Source of the DNA: Deltaproteobacteria bacterium | Lineage (GTDB): Bacteria; Desulfobacterota_C; Deferrisomatia; Deferrisomatales; JACRMM01 | Length of the DNA stretch: 9,310 nucleotides | Direction of reading: 5' to 3' | NCBI GenBank assembly: GCA_016218905.1 | Contig: JACRCS010000642.1 | Coordinates: 1-9,310, forward strand | Part shown: one piece after another, positions 2,955 to 8,944 of the stretch | Numbering within the stretch: the stretch's first letter is position 1 | Layout of the letters: the number at the start of each line of letters is the position of its first letter | Program-made: the position numbers and the translations under genes | The notes under the pieces: generated by a model | What the model saw: only the letters and a program-made list of their open reading frames with translations | What the model was told of the DNA's origin: nothing | Databases searched by the model: none

Positions 2955-3000
2955 GACACGGACGAGACGGACGGAAGGTCCGGGCCGGCTGGTCCGTGTC
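2955..3000. repeat. 9-bp inverted repeat (GACACGGAC / GTCCGTGTC) at the convergent gene ends
   Basis: GACACGGAC (2955-2963) is an exact reverse complement of GTCCGTGTC (2992-3000) with a 28-base loop. The right arm covers two bases of the selenoprotein stop codon (2999-3001). It could fold in either transcript and help to separate them. Confidence 0.6.
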
Positions 3001-3030
3001 AGTCCGTATCAGTCCGTGTCAGTCCCTGCC
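2991..3030. repeat. 10-bp tandem repeat (AGTCCGTRTC) encoding the selenoprotein C-terminal tail
   Basis: Four consecutive 10-bp units: GGTCCGTGTC, AGTCCGTATC, AGTCCGTGTC and AGTCCCTGCC. Read on the minus strand they encode the last residues (QGLTRTDTD) and supply the stop codon of the selenoprotein gene, which suggests that the repeat invaded or replaced the original gene end. Confidence 0.85.
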
Positions 3031-3871
3031 ATTCCGTCTCACTCCGAGCGCTCCCCGGTCCCAGCCCCCGGAAGAAGTCCCAATCCGGCTCCGGGTACGT
3101 CTCCCGCTTCCAGCGAAAGCCCGCGTCGGCGACGGTCCCGGGGCGTTGTGCCTCGAACAGGAGGTTGAGGGCGAGGGCGAGCACGGCGAAGTGTTCGTTC
3201 CGGTCTCCGGGCTTTCCGAGGGCGTGCCCGAAGGGGAAGCGCACGAAGAGCGCCCGCGGGGGCGGGATCTTCTCGGCCACCTCCCGGAGGAGGGAGAGGG
3301 CCACCGTGGCCAGCCCCGCCTGCTCAACCGCCCGCGCGACCAGCCCCACGGACCGGTTGCAGAGGCCTCAGGCCGGGACGAGGAGGGCGTAGTCCGCACC
3401 GGCCTCGGCCAAGCGAGCCGCCACCTCCGGCGCCGTCCGCGCCCGCAGCGTCTCGACGTGCTCCCCGTCGATGTGGCCCATGAAGCTGTAGGCGGTCGGG
3501 TGGAGGCGCAGAGCGCCGGCCCTCTCGAGCTCCCGCAGCCGCTCCAGGGGCAGGACGAGGTTCAGGTCGCGGTCGGCGTCCTCGTGGTGGTAGTAATCGT
3601 GGGTGATCGTGAGCGCGTCCGGACTGACATCCGCCGGAAAGGCGCGATAGCTCGGGTCCCCTCGGGGATCCTCCATGTCGAAGGGGACCTGCTCCTTGAG
3701 GTGCACGCCTCCCGTGGTGATGACCGCGACCACCGCCTCGCGGAGCCTCTTCCGGGGCTGCGTCCAGCCGACCTCCCCGCGGTCCGCGGCCACGGTACGG
3801 CTCCAGAGCCGGCCGAGCGCGGGGAGGCGCTCGAAGACTCGCGCCAGCAGCCGGTTCCTTTCGCGGTACAC
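2999..3871 (-). CDS. Selenoprotein of the glycine/sarcosine/betaine reductase GrdB family (PF07355-like), Sec at an in-frame TGA
   Basis: Read through the TGA at 3368-3370 this frame gives a 290-residue protein. GrdB is the selenocysteine subunit of clostridial glycine reductase; this shorter stand-alone branch has no settled role, and a thiol/selenol redox function is inferred. Family landmarks run in order: VAVITTGGVHLKEQVPFD, GDPSYRAFP, ITHDYYHHEDADRDLN, LPLERLRELERAGAL, YSFMGHI, then ADYALLVPA-U-GLCNRSVGLVARAVEQAG and PPRALFVRFPFGHALG. The TGA falls exactly where relatives, as I recall them, have Cys or Sec in a (C/U)xxC motif. Homology continues beyond it with no frameshift, and a SECIS-like hairpin follows. 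A GTG start at 3871 lies five bases after the upstream DUF89 stop, suggesting reinitiation; no good Shine-Dalgarno is seen, and an ATG at 3961 would add an Arg-rich stretch overlapping that gene. A nonsense mutation is the alternative. Confidence 0.82.
3325..3359 (-). promoter_or_regulatory. Candidate bacterial SECIS element downstream of the Sec codon
   Basis: In the minus-strand RNA, CAACCG (3359-3354) pairs with CGGUUG (3330-3325). After a single bulged G (3353), UCCGUG (3352-3347) pairs with CGCGGG (3336-3331), with two G-U pairs. The 10-base apical loop is GGGCUGGUCG and contains GGUC, as in the E. coli fdhF SECIS loop. The hairpin begins eight bases after the UGA, and 26 bases separate the UGA from GGUC, within the spacing usually accepted for bacterial SECIS. 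A smaller alternative (GCCUC 3366-3362 with GGGGC 3347-3343, one bulged U) is possible but places the loop nearer the UGA. Confidence 0.6.
3368..3370 (-). other. In-frame UGA, predicted selenocysteine codon (UGLC motif)
   Basis: The TGA lies after LLVPA and before GLCNRS. The downstream Cys three residues on gives the UxxC pair typical of redox selenoproteins of this family. Standard gene callers would break the gene here into two pieces. Confidence 0.8.
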
Positions 3872-3876
3872 GGAGC

Positions 3877-4758
3877 TTACGCCGGCCGGCCGGCCGGCGG
3901 ATCGAGGCAGACGACGACGGTCCCGGACTCGCTCCCGGTCTCCCTCGCGATGGGTCGGCACTTGACCTTCAGGAGGAAGGCGGAGGCCTTGCCGACCACC
4001 TCTCCACGCAAGGCCTCGTAGGCACCCGTCCCCTTGGCGATGACGAGGTCCGCATCGTCGAAGGCCCGGGCGACGGCGGGGGAGGCCTCGGACGGGACGA
4101 GGAAGCCCGGGGAGGTGAGGATCTCGTCGGCGAGCCGGTCGAACCCGAAGAAGGTCGCGTCCTCTCGCCTCGCGTCCTCGAAGAAGGGCAGGTCCTTCAC
4201 GACCAGCGTTACCCGGGCCCCTGCGCCCTTGAGGAGCCGGACCACGAGCGTGTCGAACCCGATCTCGCCGGCGTTATCGACCACGTAGAGGATCCGGCGG
4301 GCCTTCGCGGCGGCCCCGTGGAGGTCCCCGAGGAAGCGCGCGTTTCGCTTCCCCTCCAGGATCTCGGTCGCCTCCGGGAAGGAGAACGTCGCCGAGGGAG
4401 CGCCTAGCGGCGCTACGTTGGCGGCGGCGGCCACGGCGCAGGCACGCTCGAGGCGCGCCCGTTCGCCGCCGGCCGCCTCGGCGTAGGCCGTCGCCGCCGG
4501 AAGGAGCTCCGCCGCGCGCCGGTTGCTGCGCTCCTTGAACGGGTCGTAGAAGGAGCGGGCGGCGGAGACGAGCTCGCCCACCGAGGCGAGGACCCGGTTG
4601 CAGAGCCCGCCGACGTTCGACTCGTCCGTGAGCTCGCGAAAGAGGTAGTCGGAGATCCGCTCGGCCAACTCGGCCCTCCGGCCCTCCTGGACGTACGGAG
4701 CCGTCCGCTGATAGGCCCAGTGGAAGATGCAGGTACCGCATTCGGGCGCTGGACGCAT
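3877..4758 (-). CDS. DUF89 / ARMT1-like metal-dependent phosphatase (first copy)
   Basis: The 293-residue protein belongs to the DUF89 (ARMT1-like) family, whose characterised members are metal-dependent damage-control phosphatases acting on sugar phosphates or related metabolites. Visible features are an N-terminal CGTC pair (Cys7, Cys10), YDPFKERSNR (71-80), the metal and phosphate site VVDNAGEIGFD (159-169), AKGTGAYEAL (241-250) and FLLKVKCRPIA (261-271). Length is normal for the prokaryotic branch. The ATG at 4758 has an AAGGG-type ribosome binding site and follows the serA stop by 31 bases. The stop precedes the selenoprotein GTG by five bases, so serA, this gene and the selenoprotein gene form one probable operon. 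A damaged phospho-metabolite from serine synthesis is a conceivable substrate, but only by neighbourhood. The last residues (PAGRPA) are encoded by a GCCG tetranucleotide run. Confidence 0.88.
   Translation of the reverse strand: MRPAPECGTCIFHWAYQRTAPYVQEGRRAELAERISDYLFRELTDESNVGGLCNRVLASVGELVSAARSFYDPFKERSNRRAAELLPAATAYAEAAGGERARLERACAVAAAANVAPLGAPSATFSFPEATEILEGKRNARFLGDLHGAAAKARRILYVVDNAGEIGFDTLVVRLLKGAGARVTLVVKDLPFFEDARREDATFFGFDRLADEILTSPGFLVPSEASPAVARAFDDADLVIAKGTGAYEALRGEVVGKASAFLLKVKCRPIARETGSESGTVVVCLDPPAGRPA
3881..3898. repeat. GCCG tetranucleotide run (4.5 units) at the DUF89 / selenoprotein junction
   Basis: GCCGGCCGGCCGGCCGGC is self-complementary and made of 4-bp units, lying just before the DUF89 stop (3877-3879). 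Slippage by one unit would shift the frame. A one-unit gain would place the DUF89 frame into the selenoprotein frame, which is open here. Confidence 0.8.
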
Positions 4759-4789: not shown

Positions 4790-6382
4790 TTACAAGATGA
4801 TCTGTTTCACGCTCTGGATGTGGGGCAGGGCGGCCAACGCGTCCAGGACCTCGGGCGTCGGCGGGCTGTCGACGTTTACGAGGGTGATGGCGCGGCCGCC
4901 TTCCCGGGCCCGGCCGTTGTACATGCCGGCGATGTTGACGTGGTGGGCGCCGAGGCAGGTGCCGATGTCGCCGATGACGCCCGGGACGTCGTCGTTGTAG
5001 ATCAGGATCAGGTTTCCCTCCGGCAGCGCGTCGAGGCGGTACTCGTCGAAGCGGACGAGCCGGGGCTCCCGCTTGCCGAAGAGCGTGCCCTCCAGCACGT
5101 GCCGCCCCCAAGGCCCCTCGACCCGGACGGAGATCAGGTCCGAGAAGTCCTGGGTCTCGAGGCTCGTCGTGGTCGCCACCCGGACTCCGCGTTCCCGCGC
5201 GACGGCGGCGGCGTTGACGAGGTTGACCCGCACCGAGAGGGCCGGCGAGAGGAGCCCCTTTAGGAAGGACGCGGTCACGAGCTCCGGGCCCTGGTCGGCC
5301 GCCTCCCCGAGGACCGACACCTGCGACGACGCGACCGGTCCGGGCACGAGCTGGCCGAGGAAGCGGCCCAGGCGCTCGGCCAGGTCCAGGTAGGGCTCCA
5401 GGCGGCGAAGCGCCTCCCCCGCCGCGGCGGGCGCGTTGACGCTGTTCGGCGCGGCGCCGGTCGTGAGGTAGGCGATCACGTTCTCCGCGACTTCGACGGC
5501 GACGCCGGCCTGGGCCTCGACCGTGGACGCGCCGAGGTGGGGCGTGAGGATCACGTCCGGTCGCTGGTAGAGAGCCTTCGGGGGAGGCGGCTCGGACTCG
5601 AAGACGTCCAGGGCGGCGCCGCCGACGCGCCCGCTCTCGAGCGCCTCCTCCAGGGCCTCCTCGTCCACGATCCCGCCACGGGCGCAGTTCACGACAAGGA
5701 CGCCGGGCTTCATCTTGGAGAACGCCTCCCTCCCGAGGAGACCCCGCGTCTCCGGCGTGAGGGGCGTGTGGACCGTGAGGAAGTCCGCCTGGGCGAGGAG
5801 GGCGTCGAGGCTGCAGAGCTCCACTCCCAGCCGGGAAGCCTTCTCCTGCGAGAGGTACGGGTCGGCCGCGAGGACCCGCAGGCGAAAACACTGGGCGATC
5901 TCGGCCACCACGGACCCCACTCGGCCGACGCCGATGATGCCGAGCGTCTTCCCGCGGAGCTCCCGCCCCATGAACTTCTTCTTCTCCCACCGGCCGGCCC
6001 TCACCGAGGCGGTGGCCTGGGGGATGCGGCGCGCAAGGCTGAGCAGCATGGCTACGGCGTGCTCGCCGGTCGTGACGATGTTCCCCCCCGGGGCGTTGAC
6101 GACGGCCACTCCCACGCGGGTCGCGGCCTCGACGTCGATGTTGTCCACGCCCACGCCGGCGCGTCCGACCACCAGGAGATCGGAGCCGGCGGCGATGGCG
6201 CGCGCGGTCACCTCCACGTTGGAGCGGACGATGACCGCCTGGTAGCCGGGGATGGCCCGGACGAGCTCGTCCTCCCGCCGGACGTCGTGCACGTCGACCG
6301 AGAACCCGGGCCGCGCCGAGAACCGCTCGAGTGCCTCGCGGCCGAGATCGCAGGTGACGAGTACTCTCCAAAGGTCAGGCAT
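4790..6382 (-). CDS. serA: D-3-phosphoglycerate dehydrogenase, long ACT-domain form
   Basis: This 530-residue enzyme oxidises 3-phosphoglycerate to 3-phosphohydroxypyruvate with NAD+, the committed step of serine biosynthesis. The NAD-binding motif is LGIIGVGRVGS (147-157) with Asp174 closing the ribose pocket. Catalytic residues are Arg235 (NCARGG), Glu264 (FESEP) and His282 (PHLGAST). The hydroxyacid signature at 75-110 (GVGVDNID, APGGNIVTTGEHA) is intact. After about residue 317 come an intervening allosteric-substrate-binding-type domain and a C-terminal ACT domain (about 457-530, DVPGVIGDIGTCLG), typical of the long form seen in Mycobacterium and Bacillus. The ACT domain suggests feedback by serine. 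The start is supported by AAGGGG six bases upstream. It is the first gene of the probable operon with the DUF89 and selenoprotein genes. Confidence 0.96.
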   Translation of the reverse strand: MPDLWRVLVTCDLGREALERFSARPGFSVDVHDVRREDELVRAIPGYQAVIVRSNVEVTARAIAAGSDLLVVGRAGVGVDNIDVEAATRVGVAVVNAPGGNIVTTGEHAVAMLLSLARRIPQATASVRAGRWEKKKFMGRELRGKTLGIIGVGRVGSVVAEIAQCFRLRVLAADPYLSQEKASRLGVELCSLDALLAQADFLTVHTPLTPETRGLLGREAFSKMKPGVLVVNCARGGIVDEEALEEALESGRVGGAALDVFESEPPPPKALYQRPDVILTPHLGASTVEAQAGVAVEVAENVIAYLTTGAAPNSVNAPAAAGEALRRLEPYLDLAERLGRFLGQLVPGPVASSQVSVLGEAADQGPELVTASFLKGLLSPALSVRVNLVNAAAVARERGVRVATTTSLETQDFSDLISVRVEGPWGRHVLEGTLFGKREPRLVRFDEYRLDALPEGNLILIYNDDVPGVIGDIGTCLGAHHVNIAGMYNGRAREGGRAITLVNVDSPPTPEVLDALAALPHIQSVKQIIL

Positions 6383-6401: not shown

Positions 6402-6428
6402 GTGACGAGTCATAAGGGCCGTGACGCG
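6402..6428 (-). repeat. Left copy of a degenerate inverted repeat upstream of serA
   Basis: GTGACGAGT..ATAAGGGCCGTGACGCG on the plus strand matches the reverse complement of 6755-6783 (GTGACGAGTGAGATAAGAGC and onward) with small insertions. The pair brackets the intergenic REP elements and sits 20 bases upstream of the serA start, close to where its promoter should be. Confidence 0.65.
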
Positions 6429-6452
6429 TAAGGCGCAAAAGGACCGGCACCC

Positions 6453-6532
6453 TGTGGGAGTGGTCTCCAGACCACGATCTCGGCCCGAAGGCCGACCGGG
6501 GCGAGCATCGCGGCTTGGAAGCCGCTCCCACG
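6453..6532. repeat. REP-like palindromic element, copy 1
   Basis: An 80-bp unit with terminal inverted repeats: TGTGGGAGTGG at the left and CCGCTCCCACG at the right. Each end carries its own small palindrome, TGGTCTCCAGACCA and GCGGCTTGGAAGCCGC. The arrangement is that of a pair of REP sequences in opposite orientation. Copy 2 follows after a linker of about 30 bases. Confidence 0.88.
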
Positions 6533-6563
6533 GACGGGGGCAGTTGCCCCGGGCTCGGTCCCC

Positions 6564-6637
6564 TGTGGGAGTGGTCTCCAGGCCACGATCTGGCCGCAGG
6601 CCGATCCGGCCAAGACCATCGCGGCTCGACCCTGTGC
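6564..6637. repeat. REP-like palindromic element, copy 2 (right end degraded)
   Basis: The left half (TGTGGGAGTGGTCTCCAG) is intact and slightly diverged (GGCCACG). The right half keeps ATCGCGGCT and then breaks down, lacking the CCGCTCCCAC end. The rest of this spacer (6638-6754) has no gene that I can support; on the minus strand it is a purine-rich degenerate sequence with GACGAGTA and GGCCGTGA fragments. Confidence 0.8.
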
Positions 6638-6783: not shown

Positions 6784-7756
6784 ACGGAGCGAAGCTCCGC
6801 AGCACCGCCTCGAGATCCTCGGGCAGGGGTGTGGTGAGCTCGAGGGCCTCGCCGCTCGTGGGGTGGTTCAGGCGGACGCGGTGGGCGTGGAGGAAGAGTC
6901 GCCCGAGCCCCGTCGTCTCCCGGAGGAGCCGGTTGAGCTCCGCGTCGCCGTAGCGGCGGTCCGCCGCCACCGGATGGCCCGCTTGGGAGAGGTGGAGCCG
7001 GATCTGGTGGGTGCGTCCCGTGAGGAGCTCGATCTCCAGCAGGGTGCAGCGGAGGGGGTGTTCGTACCGGGCGATCGTGCGGTAGCGCGTGAGCGCCGAC
7101 TGGAGCTTCACCCGCCTTCGTTCGGGCCCGGTCCTCGAGTCCGGCCGGCGCAACAGGGGGACGGCGATCTCTCCGGAAGACTGCGTCCAGCCGCCCACGA
7201 GGGCAAGGTAGCGCTTCTCGAGCTGGCCTCGCTGGAGGCTCCGGCCCAACCGCCCTCGAGCCGCCCTGTTCTTTCCGACGAGGACGATCCCGGAGGTCTC
7301 TAGGTCGAGGCGGTTCGCGAGCGCCGGCTGAAACGCGTGCTCCGGCCGCGCTCCCAGGTAGTGCCGCACACGGTCGATCAGGGTATCGCCCGAGTGGCGT
7401 AGGGCCGGGTGGCTCGCGCAGCCGGCCGGCTTCGAGACCGCGAGGAGGTCCTCGTCCTCCCGGACGATGCGAAAGGGACCCGCCGGGGTCTCCACGACGA
7501 CGTCCAGCCGCTGGGCAGGCCGGGAAGGCGGCAGGGGCGGCCGGGGGAGCACGACCGTGACCACGTCCCCCTGGCGCACCCGCCCGAGGGGCACGCACGC
7601 CTTCCCGTTGACGAAGAGCTCCCGCTGGCGGGCCTTCCGGAAGACGTCGCGAGGAGTGACGTCGGGGAACGCCCTGCGCACGGCGTCGAAGACGGTGAGC
7701 CCCTCCCAGGCGGGTCCGATCCTCACGTGCTTCGGGATGGAGACGAGCTCGCTCAT
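6773..7756 (-). CDS. RluA-family ribosomal RNA pseudouridine synthase with N-terminal S4-like domain
   Basis: The 327-residue protein isomerises uridine to pseudouridine in structured RNA, most likely 23S rRNA as in RluC/RluD. An S4-like RNA-binding region covers about residues 20-70 (TVFDAVRRAF...RELFVNGKACVPLGRVRQGDVVTVVLP). The catalytic domain has LAVSKPAGCASHPA (105-118), the active-site NRLDLETSG with Asp151 (148-156), EKRYLALVGG and TGRTHQIRLHL (246-256). Asn148 replaces the more common His before RLD. The ATG at 7756 overlaps the upstream DUF89 stop as ATGA, so translation is probably coupled; the frame stays open far upstream, but only this start begins the S4 homology. The C-terminal end (PCDE) is encoded by an intergenic repeat. 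The exact target uridine cannot be assigned. Confidence 0.92.
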   Translation of the reverse strand: MSELVSIPKHVRIGPAWEGLTVFDAVRRAFPDVTPRDVFRKARQRELFVNGKACVPLGRVRQGDVVTVVLPRPPLPPSRPAQRLDVVVETPAGPFRIVREDEDLLAVSKPAGCASHPALRHSGDTLIDRVRHYLGARPEHAFQPALANRLDLETSGIVLVGKNRAARGRLGRSLQRGQLEKRYLALVGGWTQSSGEIAVPLLRRPDSRTGPERRRVKLQSALTRYRTIARYEHPLRCTLLEIELLTGRTHQIRLHLSQAGHPVAADRRYGDAELNRLLRETTGLGRLFLHAHRVRLNHPTSGEALELTTPLPEDLEAVLRSFAPCDE

Positions 7757-8637
7757 GCCGGCGCCCCGACCCTTGCGACGCGTCGCGCGTTCGCGAGGAC
7801 CATGCTCCCCTTCTCCACGCCGAGTGAGGCGGCCACGGGCTCGCACTTCGCGCAGAGGAGGAAGAAGACGGCCTTGCCGCGGAGCGCGTCCGGATATTCC
7901 GTGAGGGTCTCCCAGTTCGCCATGCCTTTGGCGAGGACAGTCCCCGCTCGCTCCCAGGCGCGGGCGAGGTCCTCCCCCGCTTCGCGGAGCTCGCACCCCA
8001 CGGCGTCGCTCCCGGTGTCGATCAGACCCGGGAGCCGCAGGCCCAGGCGCTCCGCGTCGGCCCGGGTGACGTCGTTCTGGGAGGGGCCGCCCTTGACGGC
8101 GTAGAGGACCCGCTTGCCGCCGCGCTCCAACGCCGCCAGGAGCGGAAGGTCGAAGGGGACCTCTCCGGCGTTGTCGGCCAGGAAGAGCACGTCTCCCGGC
8201 CTTGCCAAGGCGGCCCGGAGCTTCGCCCCGTCGTCGAGCGCGAGCGCCGGCAGACCGAGCTCCCAGAGGCGTTCCACTTCCTCCCGGTTTCGGAAGAAGT
8301 CGATCTGATTGCCCGCCCCGCTCAGCCGGAGGAGCCCTTCCAAGCTCTCTCCCGCCTGCGGCCGGAGGCGCGCGGCGGCCTCCCGTCCGGAGGCGTACTC
8401 CGCCGCCTTGACCTCCCGGAACGGGTCGTCGGTCCCCGAGCTTCGGCGGACGCTCCGCAGGAGGGCCGACGAGAGCCGCGTCGGGACCGACACCCCCGCT
8501 CGGAAGTCTCGCTCGAGGGCGGAGAGGCATTCCGCTTCGGCGCGGCGCGCGAGCGCCGGATCGCCGGCGGCGGCCAGGCGGACCGCGCGGCGGGCGAGGG
8601 CGCGCAAGCAGGGGAGACAGGCGGTTTCGGCTCTCAC
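7753..8637 (-). CDS. DUF89 / ARMT1-like metal-dependent phosphatase (second, divergent copy)
   Basis: The 294-residue protein is a second DUF89 member, clearly divergent from the copy at 3877-4758. Landmarks are CLPC (Cys7, Cys10), TDDPFREVK (69-77), SGAGNQIDFF (106-115), LADNAGEVPFD (153-163), VLAKGMANWETL (234-245) and FFLLCAKCEPVA (258-269). The DPFREVK and GNQIDF motifs recall the AF1104-like archaeal and bacterial branch of metal-dependent phosphatases. The start is GTG at 8637 (MRAETACLPC); no upstream in-frame ATG exists close by, and the Shine-Dalgarno is weak (GAG five to seven bases back). It overlaps the RluA-type gene by four bases. An AT-rich stretch just upstream (8661-8708) probably holds the promoter of this two-gene operon. 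Confidence 0.85.
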   Translation of the reverse strand: MRAETACLPCLRALARRAVRLAAAGDPALARRAEAECLSALERDFRAGVSVPTRLSSALLRSVRRSSGTDDPFREVKAAEYASGREAAARLRPQAGESLEGLLRLSGAGNQIDFFRNREEVERLWELGLPALALDDGAKLRAALARPGDVLFLADNAGEVPFDLPLLAALERGGKRVLYAVKGGPSQNDVTRADAERLGLRLPGLIDTGSDAVGCELREAGEDLARAWERAGTVLAKGMANWETLTEYPDALRGKAVFFLLCAKCEPVAASLGVEKGSMVLANARRVARVGAPA

Positions 8638-8708: not shown

Positions 8709-8752
8709 CGGCCACCTTTCGGGCTTTTTCTCTCGAGGCCGGTCCGGCATCC

Positions 8753-8832
8753 TATGGGAGTGGTCTCCAGACCACGCTCTCGCCGTGGGCCGGCCGGAAA
8801 GAGCATCGCGGCTTGGGAAGCCGCTCCCACGG
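8753..8832. repeat. REP-like palindromic element, copy 3
   Basis: Same architecture as copy 1: left end TATGGGAGTGGTCTCCAG, right end CGGCTTGGGAAGCCGCTCCC, with one extra G in the right palindrome. It is followed by a linker nearly identical to the one between copies 1 and 2. Confidence 0.88.
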
Positions 8833-8862
8833 ACCGGGGCACTTGCCGAGGGCTCGATCTCC

Positions 8863-8944
8863 TGTGGGAGTGGTCTCCAGACCACGATCTCGGCCGGAAG
8901 GCCGACCGGGGAACGGCATCGCGGCTTGGAAGCCGCTCCCACAG
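8863..8944. repeat. REP-like palindromic element, copy 4
   Basis: The most complete copy: begins TGTGGGAGTGG and ends CCGCTCCCACA, giving matched terminal inverted repeats, with central GGCCGGAAGGCC. It lies 43 bases upstream of the rmlB start, so it may bound or influence that gene's promoter region. Confidence 0.9.

Follow-up and report, generated by a model that had tools for sequence, protein, structure and literature searches.

The Interrupted Frame and Its Surroundings

The locus studied here raised the question of whether a TGA lying inside an otherwise open frame is a stop or a selenocysteine (Sec) codon, and what kind of enzyme the joined gene would encode. It was analyzed within a window of 9,310 nucleotides, the whole stretch of DNA considered. 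The first-pass annotation had described two frames in the same register split only by a TGA, and this was confirmed: a single frame of 290 codons was found on the minus strand (3871-2999), with a GTG start at 3871-3869, a TGA stop at 3001-2999 and, as its sole interruption, a TGA at 3370-3368. The gene was that of the minus strand, and the plus-strand translation of the region belonged to another frame. The redox motif of the product was U168-G-L-C171, in the context PAUGLC. The features were as follows.

2999..3871, minus strand: complete selenoprotein gene, PrdB/GrdB-like, 290 codons plus stop, GTG start
3368..3370, minus strand: predicted Sec168 codon, in-frame TGA, from the frame reading and the alignment of relatives
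3359..3361, minus strand: codon of Cys171, which is presumed to be the resolving cysteine of UxxC and does not vary across the 34 rows of alignment A3
3339..3357, minus strand: predicted bacterial SECIS hairpin, 8-bp stem and 3-base loop, lying 11-29 bases downstream of the UGA
2992..3046, no strand: 10-bp tandem array that takes in the final 15 codons of the selenoprotein ORF and its stop
3877..4758, minus strand: ARMT1-like (PF01937) phosphatase gene, with 5 bases between its stop and the selenoprotein start
4790..6382, minus strand: serA, phosphoglycerate dehydrogenase, SerA profile 622.8 bits against a cut-off of 454

Because its last 15 codons (3002-3046) sit inside the 10-bp tandem array, the C-terminal tail of the selenoprotein is probably not conserved. 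At the other end (3770-3871, minus strand), 34 N-terminal residues preceded the match to the PrdB model and were predicted to be mostly helical; it is possible that this modeled segment serves as a membrane-attachment element.

Several repeats were observed elsewhere in the window. A tandem array of 36/75-bp units lay at 1501-1753, where both strands are open (minus-strand ORF 1322-2200, plus-strand ORF 1493-2245), and degenerate, GATAACC-like 7-bp arrays lay at 18-132 and 223-309. Dispersed repeats of 27-75 nt with a palindrome-like GCGGCTTGGAAGCCGC stretch were found at 6406-6591 and 8741-8942, and are perhaps a REP-like element. In addition, the window carried two ARMT1-like (PF01937) phosphatase genes less than 5 kb apart, at 3877-4758 and 7753-8637.

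Reading of the In-Frame UGA

The TGA at 3370-3368 is predicted with high confidence to encode Sec168. When genome contigs were scanned, 235 relatives came up, of which the best 80 were kept as loci; the aligned codon was TGA in 79 of the 80 and GGA in one (L022), and a second gene copy in L015 also had TGA. Such conservation of a UGA at a redox-type UxxC site is what is expected of a bacterial selenoprotein. Furthermore, 297 genomes from the phylum of one relative were searched with the family alignment (E ≤ 1e-20). Sixty-six genomes matched, and TGA was present in 83 of the 86 matching rows, the other three being partial matches. The 64 loci fetched from this search, L081-L144, in which some genes occur twice, were checked at the motif and each read U there, and the TGA-bearing members of the family spanned several phyla.

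Two protein searches (best 120 of 162 and best 120 of 721 matches) gave 205 different homologous proteins. Among these listed matches, 198 stopped one residue before the Sec site, in agreement with the earlier prediction that annotation would yield truncated proteins; the UxxC half is thus missing from most of these entries. The public collection entry for the contig's own protein was a 167-residue fragment (P0003) that ended before the TGA. The other seven of the 205 listed proteins ran through the site with Gly (four), Ser (two) or Trp (one), and in the Trp protein, whose contig spans 912 bases, a TGA may have been translated with a different code. No Cys form was seen at the Sec site among the best 80 of 235 loci or among the 205 proteins listed. 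The expectation that relatives would have Sec or Cys at this position therefore held for 79 loci, but not for the single GGA and these rare Gly, Ser and Trp proteins.

The GGA of L022 (8508-8510) was followed by an intact hairpin, and represents a recent Sec-to-Gly change or an assembly error. The JGI relatives P0004, P0005, P0244 and P0245 were full-length apart from the missing N-terminus of P0005; they had Gly in place of Sec and retained C171. Gly176, present in each of the 34 rows of A3, was Ala in P0004 and P0244.

Conservation of the protein continued past the TGA, as C171, R206, H216 and W254 were the same in all 34 rows of A3. A real stop, in a pseudogene, in a deliberately truncated 167-residue protein or through a sequencing error, would agree with the public database versions of 160-205 residues that end at the TGA, and with the seven listed proteins carrying other residues there. 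However, the same TGA was common to genomes of several phyla, and the region behind it was kept both as protein and as hairpin, which makes a stop extremely improbable. The reading as Sec168 is accordingly preferred.

Hairpin Behind the UGA

A hairpin just downstream of the UGA is predicted, from the alignment, to direct Sec insertion as a SECIS element. In the alignment after the TGA, columns 14-21 paired with columns 25-32 around a three-base loop. Across 82 sequences, 96.5% of 656 cells were paired, and sliding one strand of the stem dropped the pairing to 8-55%. Compared with column shuffles, doubly changed cells were in excess (42 observed vs. 9.3) and the covariation score was higher (0.300 vs. 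0.167), whereas the stem pairs with any double change (3 vs. 2.8) and the further pair types (9 vs. 9.1) showed no excess. Because the stem lies in coding sequence, a synonymous-codon shuffle was used, in which codons were exchanged among sequences sharing the amino acid at the same column. There were 633 paired cells against 589.3 ± 3.0 expected, with 0 of 2000 shuffles as high, and 60 rows with all eight pairs against 34.3, although the relatedness of the sequences can inflate these and the column shuffles. The compensatory changes in the stem of the 82 sequences go beyond the coding constraint.

Among 22 more divergent loci picked by hand, 19 kept at least seven of the eight pairs; the weaker stems were those of L128 (five pairs), L135 and L120 (six pairs each). 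In L088 and L090, the flanking residues changed from Q...L to V...H while the stem stayed, and four GrdB genes (L140-L143) had a 7-of-8 stem at the same place with quite different sequence. The window's own stem formed all eight pairs, two of them G-U. Folded as a single sequence of 60 bases, the window hairpin was no better than shuffles (z −0.68), and RNAalifold on the alignment recovered six of the eight pairs. At the family level, the SECIS hairpin expected of bacterial selenoproteins was thus found, and the covarying stem, together with the conserved TGA, upheld the proposal that the codon at the redox (C/U)xxC position encodes Sec.

Sec Machinery in Relatives

The genes for Sec insertion were searched in 25 genomes of the 80 relatives: those of the 11 closest and of 14 others spread over the list. 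SelB exceeded the cut-off in 24 of the 25 and in 2 of 14 controls. The tRNA-Sec exceeded it in 24 of the 25 (one at 47.9 bits) and in 5 of 14 controls, and scored at least 62 bits in 23 of the relatives' genomes. In the phylum sample, SelA was over the cut-off in 269 of 297 genomes. Twenty-six phylum genomes had the closest family members, defined by at least 279 bits, and SelA was among the matches in 23 of them; in this set G005 and G074 had no match and G294 was absent from the matches listed, which could be due to incomplete assemblies.

Family Placement and Partner Subunit

The protein had been described as a stand-alone member of the GrdB family. The superfamily stood, since PF07355 matched residues 33-164, ahead of the TGA, with 29.4 bits over a cut-off of 22. 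By sequence, though, the selenoprotein is nearer to PrdB than to GrdB. The best NCBIfam match was PrdB (TIGR04483; 149.5 bits against a cut-off of 300, E 1e-43), and it crossed the TGA, aligning residues 35-248 with model positions 19-228. All 34 alignment members matched the same model (best E 1.2e-60). The GrdB model TIGR01917 gave 33 bits against a cut-off of 602.2, and the STUGTC motif was absent, with PAUGLC instead.

The motif classes in the fetched loci were UGxCN (that of the window), UPxC, UPxD (without the Cys), UPxCT and the STUGTC of GrdB. In a tree of 80 rows, GrdB was set off by a long, fully supported branch, and the window selenoprotein grouped broadly with Deferrisomatales and Geobacteraceae rows. 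The UGxCN label needed two changes on the tree, with one row, L121 (UTLCN), placed outside a group of 55 whose support was only moderate (85/66). A UPLD motif was observed in L128, L129, L131 and L132, where Sec was kept and the Cys of UxxC was replaced by Asp.

The partner subunit was sought with PF09338, the family covering GrdE and PrdA. None of the 25 relatives' genomes gave a match. The same model matched 12 of the 297 phylum genomes, showing that it works, and was present in two (G057 and G250) of the 26 with the closest members; many of the genomes are MAGs and may be incomplete. Nine window proteins were scanned as well, and no PrdA or PrdC family matched any of them. Since TIGR04483 was far under its cut-off and PF09338 was found in none of the 25 relatives' genomes, 'D-proline reductase' is probably the wrong function for this selenoprotein.

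A true PrdB subunit, with its pyruvoyl partner PrdA encoded elsewhere, would account for TIGR04483 being the best curated match and matching all alignment members, and 'D-proline reductase (dithiol) PrdB' is the JGI name of many homologues among those listed. This is very unlikely in view of the score at half the cut-off, the window scan and the scarcity of PF09338, even with many MAGs among the genomes. We see about an even chance that the UGxC-N-[RQ]-S-V-G-L proteins form a partner-free selenoenzyme family of their own, spread over several phyla and misfiled as D-proline reductase, in which Sec is kept almost always, the exceptions have mostly Gly or Ser, and some other reduction is carried out, perhaps on a compound of sulfur, selenium or arsenic. 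If a separate family of this kind exists, a 'PrdB' selenoprotein that is among the commoner ones in oceans and sediments may bear the wrong function. The name attached to many of the listed homologues predicts an activity needing a subunit that the search of the relatives' genomes did not find. Correcting the truncation and the name would make a common selenoenzyme testable in cultured relatives such as Geomonas or Chloroflexus (L009, L010, L044).

Gene Neighborhood

In the window, serA, the ARMT1-like phosphatase gene and the selenoprotein gene followed one another on the minus strand, the last beginning 5 bases past the ARMT1-like stop. Among named relatives, those nearest to the SerA protein were Deferrisomatales, at 68-69% identity, and two further matches reached 79-80%. 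The adjoining genes agreed with the serine-biosynthesis neighborhood that had been reported, but the arrangement is not conserved in relatives. At E ≤ 1e-6, 0 of 124 loci had an ARMT1-like neighbor and one had a weak SerA match (E 2e-19, 39%), 44 of these loci being only 2.5-4.3 kb long and several others short contigs. A functional tie of the selenoprotein to serine synthesis or metabolite repair would fit the shared strand, the 5-base gap and serA ahead, but is unlikely given this lack of recurrence. The serA context therefore says little about function.

Other neighbors varied. In the best 80 of 235 loci, rhodanese-like genes were found in 14, metal P-type ATPases in 10, ArsM-like genes in 9 and an ArsS cluster, upstream and on the same strand, in 5 (L030, L043, L067, L068 and L072). 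The loci with the ArsS-type radical SAM cluster were of Methylomirabilota/Methylomirabilis and Nitrospirae, and the cluster was checked in L067 and L068. Such neighbors (sulfurtransferase, arsenosugar enzymes, metal ATPase) recur without being general, and hint at a role in sulfur or metalloid detoxification.

Structure and Proposed Mechanism

The AlphaFold model was confident (pLDDT 92.4), and a search for a solved relative gave none by sequence and none by fold at E ≤ 0.001. Across the 34 rows of A3, the invariant residues included T53, G55, H91, Y93, Y94, H96, D102, M131-G-H133, U/C168, C171, R206, H216 and W254.

A one-subunit selenolate mechanism is put forward tentatively, as a scheme held with limited confidence as a whole. 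The enzyme would work without the pyruvoyl partner subunit of the PrdB and GrdB enzymes. The selenolate of residue 168 would attack or reduce a small substrate near H91, Y93, Y94, H96, M131-G-H133, R206, H216 and W254; C171 would then resolve the selenium bond by forming a selenenyl sulfide, from which the selenol would be regenerated by a thioredoxin-like protein. Pyruvoyl partner subunits activate the substrate through a Schiff base. An enzyme having no pyruvoyl group should not open D-proline in this way, so its substrate would need to carry its own activated bond, to S, Se, As or halogen, or a disulfide. Schiff-base activation by pyruvoyl partners is discussed in the available part of PMC10838667.

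Comparison with Known Systems

Among known systems, PrdB (TIGR04483) is similar in aligning over residues 35-248 and in having Sec in UxxC, and UxxC is listed as a PrdB motif class in the accessible text of PMC13188914. The window protein differs in reaching half the curated cut-off, in having 34 residues before the match with the model's first 18 positions unmatched, and in that no PF09338 was found in 25 genomes of its relatives. GrdB (PF07355, TIGR01917/01918) shares the Sec at the homologous site and the hairpin in the same register, but has the STUGTCTRCG motif, genes adjoining PF09338 genes and a long, fully supported branch. In the fluoroacetate reductase FarB/FarE, a GrdB-like Sec was proposed to attack an activated C-X bond, which resembles the scheme above; FarB/FarE differs in having two components, one of them GrdE-like, as described in the portion at hand of PMC10838667.

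The closest precedents are the catalogued 'proline reductase PrdB' selenoproteins. As far as the consulted sections of these surveys extend, 42 Sec proteins from the Sargasso Sea were called PrdB (PMC1088965), as were 235 Sec and 110 Cys proteins of the GOS (PMC2398784), and a 'proline reductase' selenoprotein was listed in 2006 for Geobacter uraniumreducens and Anaeromyxobacter dehalogenans (PMC1794560). According to the parts available, the PrdB-named family also ranks with the most widespread selenoprotein families of bacteria (PMC9312934; PMC5029168). Since Sec members of the broad family were catalogued in 2005-2008, it is already known as a selenoprotein family, and what is new is this member. 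The catalogued proteins share pfam07355 and UxxC with the window protein, but they were filed as proline reductase, and a partner-subunit test was not found in the consulted sections of the three surveys that catalogued them (PMC1088965, PMC2398784 and PMC1794560). The window protein and the catalogued 'proline reductase PrdB' selenoproteins very likely belong to the same broad family.
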